Below are positions 54,946-59,229 of a stretch of DNA of 64,000 bases, piece after piece. A program made the translations under genes and the position numbers. Source of the DNA: Methanococcoides orientis. GTDB taxonomy: Archaea; Halobacteriota; Methanosarcinia; Methanosarcinales; Methanosarcinaceae. Every line of letters starts with the position of its first letter. Position 1 is the stretch's first letter. The stretch is from contig NZ_CP073710.1 of assembly GCF_021184045.1 (NCBI RefSeq), forward strand, positions 744,001 through 808,000. The letters run 5' to 3'. The notes below the pieces were generated by a model. The model was given only the letters and a program-made list of their open reading frames with translations. It was not told the origin of the DNA and made no database searches.

Positions 54946-55223
54946 CCATGATGTTATTATTCATTTAACCTTATATATTCCGTCATCTCTACATTATATG
55001 CAACGTAATTCTTATTCTGATAATTGATCTTTCTGACATTCACCCCTATTTTGATAATCTAAATGTCGATCATCCCATTGTAATCCTTATATATAGTTTA
55101 ATAGAAAAACTATAGAATGGTATTATTGTGTAGCAGATGCTGTATTTGCTATAAAAGGGGAAATTAACAATTAATAAAGATTCTAAAATATTTCAGGATG
55201 GGGACAGCTCGCCTCAAAAAGGC

Positions 55224-56639
55224 TTGGATCTTAATGAAATTATCACAAGAAGCTCAAAAAGTGTGTGTCCGGAATGCCTTAAAGTCATTGATTGCCAGAT
55301 GATACTGCATGAGAATAAGGTATTTTTACTTAAAAATTGTGATGAGCACGGGTCGTTCGAAACTCTTGTTTATTCGGATGCAAAAGCCTATCTTGATGCA
55401 TTAAAGAGCAATAAGCCCAGTTCAAAACCTCTGCATTACCAAAGCCCTGTTTCTAAAGGATGTCCCCTTGATTGCGGATTATGTGCAGATCATCAACAGC
55501 ACACATGCGTTGGAATCGTAGAAATAACCGACACGTGCAATCTGAATTGCCCGGTATGTTTTGCAGACTCAAGAGGAAATTTTACGCTGCCTTTTGAAAA
55601 GGTAAAGGAGATGATAGACCTTTACGTTAAGTGTGAGAAGGAACCCGAGGTGCTCCAGATAAGTGGGGGTGAACCAACATTGCATCCGGATATCTTAAGG
55701 ATCCTGGAATATATGGGCCAAAAGAATATCATATACCCGGTTCTGAACACCAACGGATTAAAACTTGCTGACATGGATTTTGCAGAAAAGATAGCATCTA
55801 CCGTACAAAATGATGGATCCGGAATTGGTAAACCAGTCATTTATTTTCAGTTCGACGGGTTAGATGATAAGACCTATACTACCCTCAGAGGAAGACCTCT
55901 GCTCGATATCAAAATGAAGGCTCTTGAAAACTGTGAAAAACTTGGTTTGACAGTTGCTCTGGTAGCCACCATTGTCAAGGGAGTAAATGATCAGGAAATT
56001 GGTCATATCATAGATCTTGCCCTCCGGAAAACAAACATCAAAATGGTCAATTTCCAGCCAGCTACAATAACCGGAAGATATGAACTGGAAAAAAAGACCG
56101 AAACGAGACTAACCATTCCTGAAATATTAGATGAGATCGAGGATCAGACAGGAGGAGTGCTAAACAAAGATAACTTCATTAGCATCCCTTGCCCCCATCC
56201 GACCTGTTCAGTTTGTGCCTATGTTTACGACCACATGGGAAAAAAGGTATCACTAACTAAGTTCCTGAATTCCAGTGCCTGTCGGGACCTTCTTGTTGAC
56301 CGCACTGTTGCAGATTTTAAAGTTGTATCCAAGATTGAAAGATCGATCAATACTCTGAATGTGCTTATGTCCAAAACTAACAAGTGTTGTGGCGATGGAA
56401 CGCAGAAATGTAATTGCACTTTGTTCCCGGGCATGGTTTCAGATGCCGGTAAAATGATAGACAACATAACTCTCATCTCAGTCCATGCGTTTATGGACGA
56501 ATATAATTTTGATCTGGAAAGATCGAAGAAATGCTGTATAACAGAGATCCTCCCTAATGGCCAGATGATACCATTCTGCGTGTACAACATACTCTACAGG
56601 GAAAAATTGACCTCCGAATTCAGGAGCATGTGTCAATAA
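55224..56639 (+). CDS. Radical SAM enzyme of the MJ0619/tetraether-synthase-like family
   Basis: 471 aa from TTG 55224. The frame is open upstream to 55155, and an ATT at 55170 with AAGGGG 9 nt before it may be the true start. N-terminal CPECLK...CDEHGSF and CPLDCGLCADHQQHTC bind extra metal clusters; the radical-SAM triad is CNLNCPVC (about residue 107), then ISGGEPTLHPD. C-terminal CPHPTCSVC, CCGDGTQKCNC add more cysteines. This pattern is that of MJ0619 homologues, which include the tetraether lipid synthase and a pterin methylase. It lies 49 nt before an arsM, so an arsenic-linked role is also possible. Confidence 0.85.
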   Translation: MDLNEIITRSSKSVCPECLKVIDCQMILHENKVFLLKNCDEHGSFETLVYSDAKAYLDALKSNKPSSKPLHYQSPVSKGCPLDCGLCADHQQHTCVGIVEITDTCNLNCPVCFADSRGNFTLPFEKVKEMIDLYVKCEKEPEVLQISGGEPTLHPDILRILEYMGQKNIIYPVLNTNGLKLADMDFAEKIASTVQNDGSGIGKPVIYFQFDGLDDKTYTTLRGRPLLDIKMKALENCEKLGLTVALVATIVKGVNDQEIGHIIDLALRKTNIKMVNFQPATITGRYELEKKTETRLTIPEILDEIEDQTGGVLNKDNFISIPCPHPTCSVCAYVYDHMGKKVSLTKFLNSSACRDLLVDRTVADFKVVSKIERSINTLNVLMSKTNKCCGDGTQKCNCTLFPGMVSDAGKMIDNITLISVHAFMDEYNFDLERSKKCCITEILPNGQMIPFCVYNILYREKLTSEFRSMCQ

Positions 56640-56688
56640 TGAAGTTATCAGGAATAATGATCATACAATATATCCAATATCGAGGGCT

Positions 56689-57543
56689 ATGATGGATCCA
56701 AAAGAAATAAAGAAAATGGTAAAGGAAGGTTACACCGAAATAGCAAGAACAGGCTTACCCTGCTGTCCAACTTCAAATTCATGTTGCGATCTTAGTGGCA
56801 TTGCGGAGGATATCAGTCGTGAAGTGGGCTATTCAGACAAAGACCTTGAGGAGAGCCCGGAAGGCGCAAACCTTGGCCTTGGTTGTGGGAACCCCACTGC
56901 ACTGGCATCTCTGAAATTGGGTGAGACTGTTCTAGACCTGGGTTCAGGTGCAGGCTTTGATTGTTTTCTTGCTGCCGCCAGGGTGGGAAAAGAGGGAAAG
57001 GTCATCGGCGTAGATATGACTCCGGATATGATCGATAAAGCCACTGAAAATGCCTCTAAAGGAGACTACACTAATGTGGAATTCAGACTGGGGGATATTG
57101 AAGACCTACCAGTTACTGATAATTCCATTGATGTTGTGATCTCTAATTGTGTGATCAACCTCTCCCCTTCCAAGGATAAAGTATTCAGAGAGATATTCAG
57201 GGTCCTGAAAGAAGGTGGGCGTTTCATTATTTCGGACATTGCCCTCTTAAGCCCCATTCCAGACAGGATCAGGGAATCCGCAGAAGCATACATCAGTTGT
57301 ATTTCAGGTGCGATCTTAAAGAAAGACTATCTGGCCATCATCAAAAGATCCGGATTTGCAGATATTGAGATAATAGAAGAAACAACCTATCCGTTTGACC
57401 TGATCGTTGCAATGATCTCCCCTGATGAAATGAGTTCTATCCTGAAGGACATGAACCTCTCTATGGAAGAAGCAGAAGAGATGACAGGTTCTGTAGTTAG
57501 CATTGAAGTCGGTGGGACAAAACCATCCTTATCTTCCATGTAA
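56689..57543 (+). CDS. arsM: Arsenite S-adenosylmethionine methyltransferase
   Basis: 284 aa. ArsM family: N-terminal thiolate cluster GLPCCPTSNSCC (about residues 23-34), LGLGCGNPTALASLKLGETV, SAM motif DLGSGAGFDCFLAA, and the two arsenic-binding cysteines in VVISNCVINLSPSK and AYISCISGAI. It methylates As(III) to mono-, di- and trimethyl forms, some of them volatile, as seen in methanogens. It directly follows the radical SAM gene. A terminator at 57556 ends the unit. No arsR or arsB is near. Confidence 0.93.
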   Translation: MMDPKEIKKMVKEGYTEIARTGLPCCPTSNSCCDLSGIAEDISREVGYSDKDLEESPEGANLGLGCGNPTALASLKLGETVLDLGSGAGFDCFLAAARVGKEGKVIGVDMTPDMIDKATENASKGDYTNVEFRLGDIEDLPVTDNSIDVVISNCVINLSPSKDKVFREIFRVLKEGGRFIISDIALLSPIPDRIRESAEAYISCISGAILKKDYLAIIKRSGFADIEIIEETTYPFDLIVAMISPDEMSSILKDMNLSMEEAEEMTGSVVSIEVGGTKPSLSSM

Positions 57544-57555
57544 ACTTCATATAGG

Positions 57556-57576
57556 GCCTTCGATCTTATTGAAGGC
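57556..57576 (+). terminator. Terminator of arsM
   Basis: GCCTTC (57556-57561) pairs with GAAGGC (57571-57576), 13 nt after the stop, followed by a T-rich run around 57588-57601. Confidence 0.65.
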
Positions 57577-57733
57577 TCAGACACAATTTATTTTTTCTTT
57601 TTGAAAACACATTAATTTATGCAGAATCTATGTTCCTGCTTTATTTTGTAGTGTTACAAATAATGCATAGATACATGCATAGGTGGATGCATAAATATGA
57701 ATCTAAATAGAAGTCTAAATTTATACAAAAAAA

Positions 57734-59077
57734 TCAATCCAGAGGCTTTATTTTCGATAATATCAGATCTGACAATTCCATTCTCTGTTTAAACTCAGTT
57801 TCAAGCATGAGATCTTTCACTAATTGTTCAGCCTCAGGATCATTGATAAGCATTAACATATCTCCGAAATATTCCGGAATATAGTATTCCGTATTTCCAG
57901 CCTCGATCGCATTCCTGTATTCATCCCTTACCTGATCATCAAAATATTCTGCTTCATGACAGAGGAGTTTGAGAATCAGTTCAACTACGCCCTGTTCCTT
58001 CTCTAGGACAGCTATGCTAACAAACGGAGGGATAAATATACTTAAAAAATAGAATGTACGATTTATTGAATTCTCAGGATCGTACCAGATATGAAGCTCA
58101 TCCAGGATTTCACAATTCTTCTGCTCCCTCAATGGGTCGGAAACAGGATGGTTCTCAAAGACAGCAAGAATGTCCTGTAACTTTTCTTTTAGTTTCTGGA
58201 ATATCATATCCCGGCCCAATAAGTTAGCTGGCTCGAGATGTTTCCACCCCGGAGCAAAATAGAATGGAACAACAAAGGCCTCCTCATCGGTGTCCGGGTA
58301 ATAAAGTGTGCCAGATTCCCCTGTAACAATATCGAAATAAGGTATCCTTAATCTAAGGCTATAACGAGCATTTTCCAGGGATGAAATGTTGATGACGACC
58401 TTATCTGCACCTTCACCTTTGGCACTGAATGTACGCTCAGGTTCATTGTTCAGCTTAAGCAATGGGTATTGCGTTTCATGTATGCTGAGCTCAGCCTCAA
58501 GCATAACAACGTTCAATGGAGCTGCCGGCAAGGAATAATCAATTGTGATTTCAGGTTCCCACTCTTCGATCTCCAAGAAGATCTCCTCCACAATAACTGA
58601 TCCGGAACCTGTATTGGCCAGTATGAACTGTAGTTCATTATCCCCCTGAGGGTAATCCAGAGCTAAAGTAGGCCTGATAATCCAGAGACATGAAGACTCC
58701 TTTTTCTCCATTAGCAATTGCCTTAGAAGAGAGATCTCATTTGCGATCTCATCCATTTGAATATTGTATGACATCAATTCGTTCTCAAATGAACTGGTCG
58801 AATCCTGAATACTGCTTAGCATTTCGATAGCATCAGAATAATCTCTGCCCATGCCCTGTTCTTCCCCGAAGGTACGCCTTATGGTAGAAGCAAGTACAGT
58901 ACCCAGAAGGGGTACAGGCATTTTACGAACTTCCTCACAAATAATGTTCAAAGCCACCTCGCCAGTTGATTCTTTCAATTTCTGTGGAAGGCTCTTAAGC
59001 ATAGAACCAATGTAATTCTGAGCCGACGAAATGATCGAGTCCTTAGAAACGTCCCCTTCTTTCAGATTACCAGACAT
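57734..59077 (-). CDS. Large protein of unknown function with coiled coil
   Basis: 447 aa from ATG 59077 (GGGG 7 nt upstream; the ATG at 59089 has no site). Residues 1-75 are amphipathic with a short hydrophobic stretch (VPLLGTVLASTIRRTFG). Residues 80-115 are a coiled coil (NELMSYNIQMDEIANEISLL). Then comes a beta-rich domain (LQFILANTGSGSVIVEEIFL, SLRLRIPYFDIVTG) and a helical C-terminus rich in Glu/Leu (AIEAGNTEYYIPEYFGDML). No catalytic motif or signal peptide. It stands alone. Toxin-like or scaffold roles are speculation; I do not recognise it. Confidence 0.65.
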   Translation of the reverse strand: MSGNLKEGDVSKDSIISSAQNYIGSMLKSLPQKLKESTGEVALNIICEEVRKMPVPLLGTVLASTIRRTFGEEQGMGRDYSDAIEMLSSIQDSTSSFENELMSYNIQMDEIANEISLLRQLLMEKKESSCLWIIRPTLALDYPQGDNELQFILANTGSGSVIVEEIFLEIEEWEPEITIDYSLPAAPLNVVMLEAELSIHETQYPLLKLNNEPERTFSAKGEGADKVVINISSLENARYSLRLRIPYFDIVTGESGTLYYPDTDEEAFVVPFYFAPGWKHLEPANLLGRDMIFQKLKEKLQDILAVFENHPVSDPLREQKNCEILDELHIWYDPENSINRTFYFLSIFIPPFVSIAVLEKEQGVVELILKLLCHEAEYFDDQVRDEYRNAIEAGNTEYYIPEYFGDMLMLINDPEAEQLVKDLMLETEFKQRMELSDLILSKIKPLD

Positions 59078-59229
59078 ATTATTCCCCATTTTTATTTTAG
59101 TGGGAAACTATATACCATTTCGTCTGGGAACGTCAAATTGAAAATGAAAATTGAGGATAAATTTAAAGTGAATTTAAGTTAAAATGAGGGGAAATTAAGA
59201 AACTGAAAGTGATAACATCAACAAAACAA

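Follow-up and report, generated by a model that had tools for sequence, protein, structure and literature searches.

A radical SAM protein related to tetraether synthase and its arsenite methyltransferase partner in Methanosarcinaceae

The 64,000-nucleotide (nt) window analysed here (G000:C1:744001–808000, where G000:C1 is the single contig of the 2.49-Mb genome of the archaeon Methanococcoides orientis) carries a gene for a radical S-adenosylmethionine (SAM) protein of the superfamily that comprises tetraether synthase (Tes) and TrsS, followed directly by arsM, a gene for an arsenite methyltransferase. The pairing is conserved, and the two proteins very likely form one functional unit, as judged from gene order, fusion and joint loss. 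We tentatively propose that this two-enzyme unit makes a carbon-substituted, methylated organoarsenical richer than methylarsenite, a chemistry inferred from the families of the two proteins. The genes are arranged as follows, and their positions and spacing confirm those given in an earlier note on this DNA.

55224–56639, + strand: radical SAM gene, Tes/TrsS superfamily (471 amino acids counted from a TTG codon; reading frame open from 55155); encoded in order are a rubredoxin-like region (N-terminal), an N-terminal [4Fe-4S] motif, the radical SAM core and a C-terminal [4Fe-4S] motif
56640–56688, + strand: gap of 49 nt between the two genes (in relatives 51, 8, 6 or −4 nt, or fused)
56689–57543, + strand: arsM, arsenite S-adenosylmethionine methyltransferase (284 amino acids; start ATG at 56689, stop at 57543)

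Conservation, fusion and loss of the gene pair

A search of 111 genomes of the family found close orthologues of the radical SAM protein (at least 59% identity) in 8, namely the window's own genome, the congeners G024, G023, G022, G021 and G016, and two further genomes, G032 and G029. The window protein is 79–80% identical to those of two Methanococcoides metagenome-assembled genomes (MAGs; G023 and G022). In seven of the eight, arsM follows directly in the same orientation, at distances of 49, 51, −4, −4, −4, 8 and 6 nt. The eighth, a Methanohalobium MAG (G029, NZ_JAHENT010000021.1), encodes both proteins in one frame of 759 amino acids, in which residues 23–470 match the TrsS model NF045646 (348.8 bits) and residues 490–729 match the arsenite methyltransferase model NF008823 above its cut-off (317.4 bits). 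The structure predicted for this fusion, with a mean predicted local distance difference test score (pLDDT) of 52.3, holds no information on domain arrangement.

Pairing extends to every member of the radical SAM clade that was found. All 12 have a methyltransferase of the ArsM superfamily adjacent or fused: 8 are the Methanosarcinaceae members, whose partners exceed the NF008823 cut-off, and 4 come from elsewhere and have partners resembling DVU_1556. The clade has at least these 12 members, the phylum searches having sampled 292 and 344 genomes. As a control, none of 28 sequences with the Met439/Tyr459 signature of Tes (residues numbered as in MJ0619) has such a methyltransferase on either strand in the flanks available, which extend 1 kb or more in each direction for 15 of the 28. 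Likewise, none of 35 other ArsM-type sequences lies within 400 nt of a radical SAM gene of the superfamily in the stretch examined.

Several features of the neighbour scan bear on how its counts are read. The 13 sequences with His and Glu at the two signature positions include L043 and L188, which are one G024 gene, as well as L164 and L165, which lie outside the clade; L065 was scored as lacking a neighbour because its partner sits in the same frame. The methyltransferase profile was seeded with six sequences, three each from loci of the TrsS and the pair type, and its positive counts therefore lean towards these two groups. A weak methyltransferase match (35 bits, 1185 nt away) accompanies one sequence, L060, that groups with a second radical SAM protein of the window's host.

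Between the window and G024, the rate of non-synonymous substitution (dN) is 0.052 and that of synonymous substitution (dS) 0.386 for the radical SAM gene (dN/dS roughly 0.13), and the corresponding values for arsM are 0.043 and 0.582 (roughly 0.07). These ratios indicate that purifying selection acts on both.

One congener, G025, lacks the following block.

55621–57732 (no strand): block absent from G025, which has 9 nt in its place; it takes most of the radical SAM gene and all of arsM

This loss is a single 2.1-kb deletion that left only remnants of the radical SAM gene between flanks that are 85% identical on either side. In G016, a 4-nt deletion breaks the N-terminal rubredoxin-type region of the radical SAM gene (L047, 7806–9197), the frame resumes downstream and arsM is intact. 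Upstream of the pair, the window and G024 have other genes than G023, G022, G021 and G016, yet the pair itself stays together; one downstream flank is common to G024 and G016. A search of plasmids returned 10 records, every one below 36% identity.

The operon-like layout, the fusion, the joint loss and the fact that all clade members found have a partner argue together that the pair is a functional unit. The earlier note had left room for a chance neighbourhood of two unrelated genes. In keeping with that reading, no single third gene was seen to accompany the pair throughout the Methanosarcinaceae stretches, and several congeners lack the pair altogether. With 12 of 12 members paired or fused, upstream neighbours that change while the pair persists, and co-deletion in G025, we reject this explanation as extremely improbable; the association with arsM that the note had pointed to is conserved.

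The upstream region contains two further elements.

55085–55099, + strand: TATA-like AT-rich box, ccttatatatagttt, with a similar sequence in the same place in G024, G023 and G021
55170–55172, + strand: ATT codon in the open radical SAM frame, present in six of six genus members aligned; a possible but unsupported start

The AT-rich box is a likely promoter. The radical SAM frame opens at codon 55155, the first after an in-frame stop, and ends with the stop at 56639; its first ATG, GTG or TTG is the TTG at 55224, and its first ATG, at 55299, lies past the CPEC motif. Comparison of the 19 codons 5′ of 55224 reveals 9 non-synonymous and 0 synonymous changes between the window and G024, and 10 and 0 between the window and each of G023, G022 and G021, whereas the 100 codons from SKSVCP onward differ from G024 by 16 non-synonymous and 17 synonymous changes. 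Coding constraint is thus not apparent 5′ of 55224, a pattern in favour of the TTG there as the start. The ATT start suggested earlier does correspond to a codon kept throughout the aligned genus members, but the substitution pattern speaks for the TTG. G024, however, has no TTG or GTG matching 55224; close by, it offers just two candidates, a TTG farther 5′ and a conserved GTG beside the first Cys. Directly downstream of the pair, a 451-amino-acid protein is encoded at 57734–59089 on the − strand; it has no Pfam match, and a counterpart occupies the same place in G025.

Family and metal ligands of the radical SAM protein

The window protein matches the Pfam families Radical_SAM and HMPTM zinc ribbon. 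Its best NCBIfam match is TrsS (NF045646; 374.7 bits, below the cut-off of 490) and its second is Tes (NF045702; 333.5 bits, below the cut-off of 450); on three other clade members the TrsS model scores 366.0, 359.2 and 348.8 bits. By sequence, the closest solved relative is by far MJ0619/GDGT-MAS (PDB 7tol/7tom), and the motifs CPxC...CxxH (rubredoxin ligands), GCPxDCGLCxxH, CNLNCPVC and the C-terminal CC...C all align with it. The MJ0619 ligands kept are C9, C12, C33 and H36 at the rubredoxin site, C73, C77, C80 and a His at the N-terminal cluster, those of the radical SAM cluster, and the C-terminal cysteines. On this alignment, the protein has Cys/His ligands for a radical SAM cluster, two auxiliary [4Fe-4S] clusters and a rubredoxin-type iron.

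In contrast, two other positions set the protein apart from Tes. Met439 of MJ0619 is His and Tyr459 is Glu in the window, and every clade sequence aligned has His together with Glu or Gln. Lloyd et al. (PMC9433317) give Met439 and Tyr459 as completely conserved across 1000 archaeal Tes homologues, and also describe the M439A variant as still active and Tyr459 as non-essential. The replacements therefore mark a separate group and are not by themselves proof of a new reaction.

To place this group, superfamily matches below 150 bits or shorter than about 380 residues were discarded and duplicates removed, which reduced 145 to 90; with MJ0619, 91 sequences were aligned and 54 entered a first tree. 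Four further sequences brought the alignment to 95, from which a second tree took 40. Both trees were drawn midpoint-rooted, and 'clade' here means one side of a supported branch. In the first, seven Methanosarcinaceae sequences group together (100/100) and are joined by two sequences from Thermoplasmatota (100/99), apart from 17 Tes-type sequences that include MJ0619 (100/100) and one Met/Gln sequence, L092, and apart from 13 TrsS sequences (100/96). The second tree, with the new members, yields a window group of nine (100/99), again outside Tes and TrsS, whose nearest kin are a Mycolicibacterium plasmid protein and proteins that have lost ligands of the C-terminal cluster (99/99 for the whole).

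Membership of Tes is rejected on the score below the NF045702 cut-off, the replacement of Met439 and Tyr459, and the separation in two trees; membership of TrsS is likewise rejected on the score below the NF045646 cut-off and the position outside the TrsS group in both. The Tes label is thus one of superfamily resemblance. The earlier description of the protein as Tes-like holds for the cysteine pattern and fails at the two residues that Tes conserves completely, and the grouping with tetraether synthases that the earlier note named as part of its refutation is not seen in either tree.

These data also bear on whether the protein is a divergent Tes, or another enzyme of lipid C–C coupling, with an unrelated neighbour. 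MJ0619/GDGT-MAS is its best solved relative and the Cys/His ligands are conserved. The predicted structure finds 7tol/7tom as its best PDB match, with a template modelling (TM) score of about 0.6 on a low-confidence model (mean pLDDT 59.5), a weakness for which only this best match is used. Moreover, a second strong superfamily protein of the host, at G000:C1:914231, has a Met/Val signature, so that no Tes-signature protein was found in the host genome and the window protein could in principle be the host's Tes. Against this stand its separation from the 17-sequence Tes group in both trees, its score of 333.5 where Tes requires 450, the two replaced residues and the pairing of all 12 members found. 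We consider a lipid-coupling role with an unrelated neighbour very unlikely.

Other superfamily members have neighbourhoods of their own. The host's second radical SAM gene (G000:C1:914210–915697; L062, 6211–7698) lies beside genes for an AMP-ligase matching DVU_1553 (275.7 bits, cut-off 300), a DVU_1557-type domain protein and a URO-D/MtaA-like protein. By its gene content, this neighbourhood is an archaeal counterpart of the DVU_155x genes, and similar-looking neighbours recur in related genomes. Members that have lost ligands of the C-terminal cluster (L148, 4553–6792; L226, 5226–7356; L067, 6001–9264) lie beside or near a membrane protein, which we take to resemble an Lgt-type transferase. 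Two bacterial relatives with the His/Glu signature, L164 (1466–2953) and L165 (5134–6504), fall outside the clade.

The methyltransferase partner and the proposed chemistry

The partner scores 351.9 bits against the curated arsenite methyltransferase model NF008823 (cut-off 263), which bears out its earlier identification, compared with 88.4 bits against the DVU_1556-family model NF045667 (below its cut-off of 155) and 102 against the arsenosugar ArsM model (below its cut-off of 400). Its Cys66, Cys154 and Cys204 align with the cysteines of the GCG, SNCV and ECLxGA motifs of solved ArsMs in the PDB and are invariant in all eight pair ArsM sequences, fusion included; the corresponding three cysteines of known ArsMs are numbered 72, 174 and 224. 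The ArsM part of the fusion has no N-terminal CC...CC motifs. In a tree from a short search without bootstrap, two stand-alone ArsMs of genus g8 fall together with those of the pair (Shimodaira–Hasegawa-like approximate likelihood ratio test, 84), and the window's ArsM stands apart from a further ArsM of the host at G000:C1:1883460, so that the pair copy is a separate one.

We propose that the radical SAM protein would generate a 5′-deoxyadenosyl radical, which would take a hydrogen from an unactivated C–H of the substrate, a small molecule or a lipid. As in Tes, the C-terminal [4Fe-4S] cluster would hold the resulting carbon radical, which would then be coupled to trivalent arsenic, and ArsM would add methyl groups to the same arsenic before or after coupling. 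With His replacing the labile Met ligand and Glu or Gln replacing Tyr, the site would be retuned for hetero-coupling rather than the C–C homo-coupling of Tes. That the substrate contains arsenic is suggested by the identity of ArsM and by the precedents of ArsL–ArsM and ArsS–ArsM, and the C–As step is reasoned from Tes chemistry. We hold the production of such an organoarsenical, a type of product that the earlier note had raised with an arsenolipid as its example, to be plausible, at a confidence that falls somewhat short of even.

A broader extension of this proposal is rather unlikely in our estimate. It would make the pair a third, independently evolved organoarsenical route, in which a four-metallocentre radical SAM protein of the Tes superfamily joins an unactivated sp3 carbon, perhaps the end of an archaeal phytanyl chain, to arsenic with ArsM as partner, yielding archaeal arsenolipids; bacterial TrsS–TrsM pairs would by extension carry out similar metalloid or chalcogen chemistry. 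To our knowledge, few enzymes make C–As bonds beyond methyl, and we know of none from archaea. No paper on a Tes- or TrsS-type radical SAM protein paired with ArsM was found in the open-licence literature of PubMed Central.

Several observations weigh against an arsenical product. The pair sits away from the host's Acr3–ArsP locus, G023 carries the pair yet has no Acr3 match, and two stand-alone ArsMs fall among the pair ArsMs in the tree, which are thus not one demonstrated clade. The partner is not a canonical ArsM in 4 of the 12 clade members (80–115 bits on NF008823), nor is the methyltransferase of the related TrsS loci scanned; arsenic therefore need not be the common substrate. Finally, the bacterial His/Glu proteins L164 and L165 have no ArsM-type methyltransferase within 1.5 kb.

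The four members in question come from G848 and G706 (another family of the same phylum) and from G111 and G156 (Thermoplasmatota), each with the methyltransferase adjacent. DVU_1556 is the best model for these methyltransferases, at 105, 134, 131 and 134 bits (L066, L147, L227 and L228; cut-off 155 not reached). A CISGA motif is present in all four and LGLGCGNP in none; where ArsM has SNCV, the three inspected have ECALC. A small CxxC protein (IFVYNADSG...TYxCNLC) is encoded near the pair in L066 (5497–5868, Thermoplasmatota) and L227 (4010–4450, family f8); neither copy has a Pfam match, and the L066 copy has no NCBIfam match. Of the 18 TrsS loci above the cut-off, 17 were in the set (L133 was left out), and all 17 have an ArsM-like methyltransferase no more than about 0.5 kb away on their own strand, so that the theme of radical SAM protein plus methyltransferase is wider than the arsenic-type pair. 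In the Mycolicibacterium vanbaalenii plasmid NZ_CP126902.1 (L225, 2502–8360), the radical SAM gene overlaps that of a DVU_1556-like methyltransferase (136 bits, cut-off 155) by 4 nt, and the neighbours are CcdA, a disulfide oxidoreductase, a second radical SAM protein and a PhnD-type binding protein.

The use of related, non-canonical methyltransferases by these four members and by the TrsS family makes sulfur or selenium chemistry a serious rival. Here, the C-terminal cluster of the radical SAM protein would supply sulfur or selenium for insertion into an unactivated C–H, and the methyltransferase would methylate the thiolated (or seleno) product; arsenic would not be physiological, and the same logic would apply to bacterial TrsS–TrsM. 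Tes itself passes through a substrate carbon–sulfur bond at the C-terminal cluster, and a thiolated lipid was recovered under limiting SAM (PMC9433317). TrsS appears in a selenoprotein table, the only naming of TrsS that one literature search returned (PMC13188914). In addition, the partner can be DVU_1556-like instead of ArsM-type. The Mycolicibacterium plasmid pair has a CcdA-type gene and a redoxin gene for neighbours, and a redoxin is also encoded close to the L228 pair. Neither window frame contains an internal stop, which bears on selenocysteine. On the other side, the Methanosarcinaceae partner belongs to the curated arsenite methyltransferase family with its three aligned cysteines, fusion included, and we know of no canonical ArsM that acts as a thiol methylase. 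We judge sulfur or selenium chemistry possible, with doubt.

Detoxification offers a further account, in which the radical SAM protein regenerates, reduces or dealkylates something that helps ArsM to volatilise or export methylarsenic, with no new C–As bond. ArsM is classically a detoxification enzyme, and the host has Acr3, which adjoins an ArsP-family permease at G000:C1:1245321–1247380, and three ArsP-family matches above the cut-off. However, the pair is not at that locus and a separate ArsM lies elsewhere in the host. All 11 genomes tested have ArsP-family genes, whether or not they carry the pair, and 8 of the 11 have an Acr3 match, with the pair-bearing G023 among those that do not; neither gene therefore discriminates. 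A purely detoxifying unit appears improbable.

Comparison with known systems

Organoarsenical synthesis, our preferred reading, has precedents. ArsL, a radical SAM protein, and ArsM of Burkholderia gladioli suffice for arsinothricin synthesis in Escherichia coli, and ArsS works with ArsM in arsenosugar synthesis, as stated in PMC8552651. The window pair resembles the former in that a radical SAM protein and ArsM are encoded together, but its radical SAM protein has 12 ligand-type cysteines and belongs to the Tes/TrsS superfamily. It resembles the ArsS–ArsM system of Synechocystis in a radical SAM protein that would act with ArsM, whereas the pair ArsM falls far below the arsenosugar cut-off. 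Among the best 25 of 31 NCBIfam matches to the window protein (down to E = 1e-5, in a library whose ArsL content was unchecked), there is no ArsS or ArsL model.

With Tes/GDGT-MAS (MJ0619, 7tol/7tom) the protein shares the four-metallocentre layout, including three C-terminal cysteines; it differs by a PCPxPTCSVC-bearing segment that is shorter by about 20 residues, by the His and Glu/Gln replacements, by its separate tree group and by its methyltransferase partner. With TrsS and its DVU_1556-family methyltransferase (NF045667), the likeness is the best curated radical SAM match and an ArsM-like methyltransferase alongside, but the window partner is a canonical ArsM 3′ of the radical SAM gene, whereas the methyltransferase of TrsS loci lies 5′ of TrsS, and the other TrsS-flanking genes are absent beside the window pair. 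Within ArsM (NF008823), the window methyltransferase is a member by score that groups with the stand-alone ArsMs of genus g8.

This co-conserved, once-fused combination is a small two-gene system open to direct test, and it gives a handle on the TrsS family. Within one clade, a true arsenite methyltransferase has taken the place of a TrsM-like partner, and this exchange suggests which chemistry is served by the methyltransferase position. What is new relative to the known ArsL–ArsM and ArsS–ArsM pairs is, by its phylogenetic placement, a radical SAM protein from a branch of its own beside Tes and TrsS.

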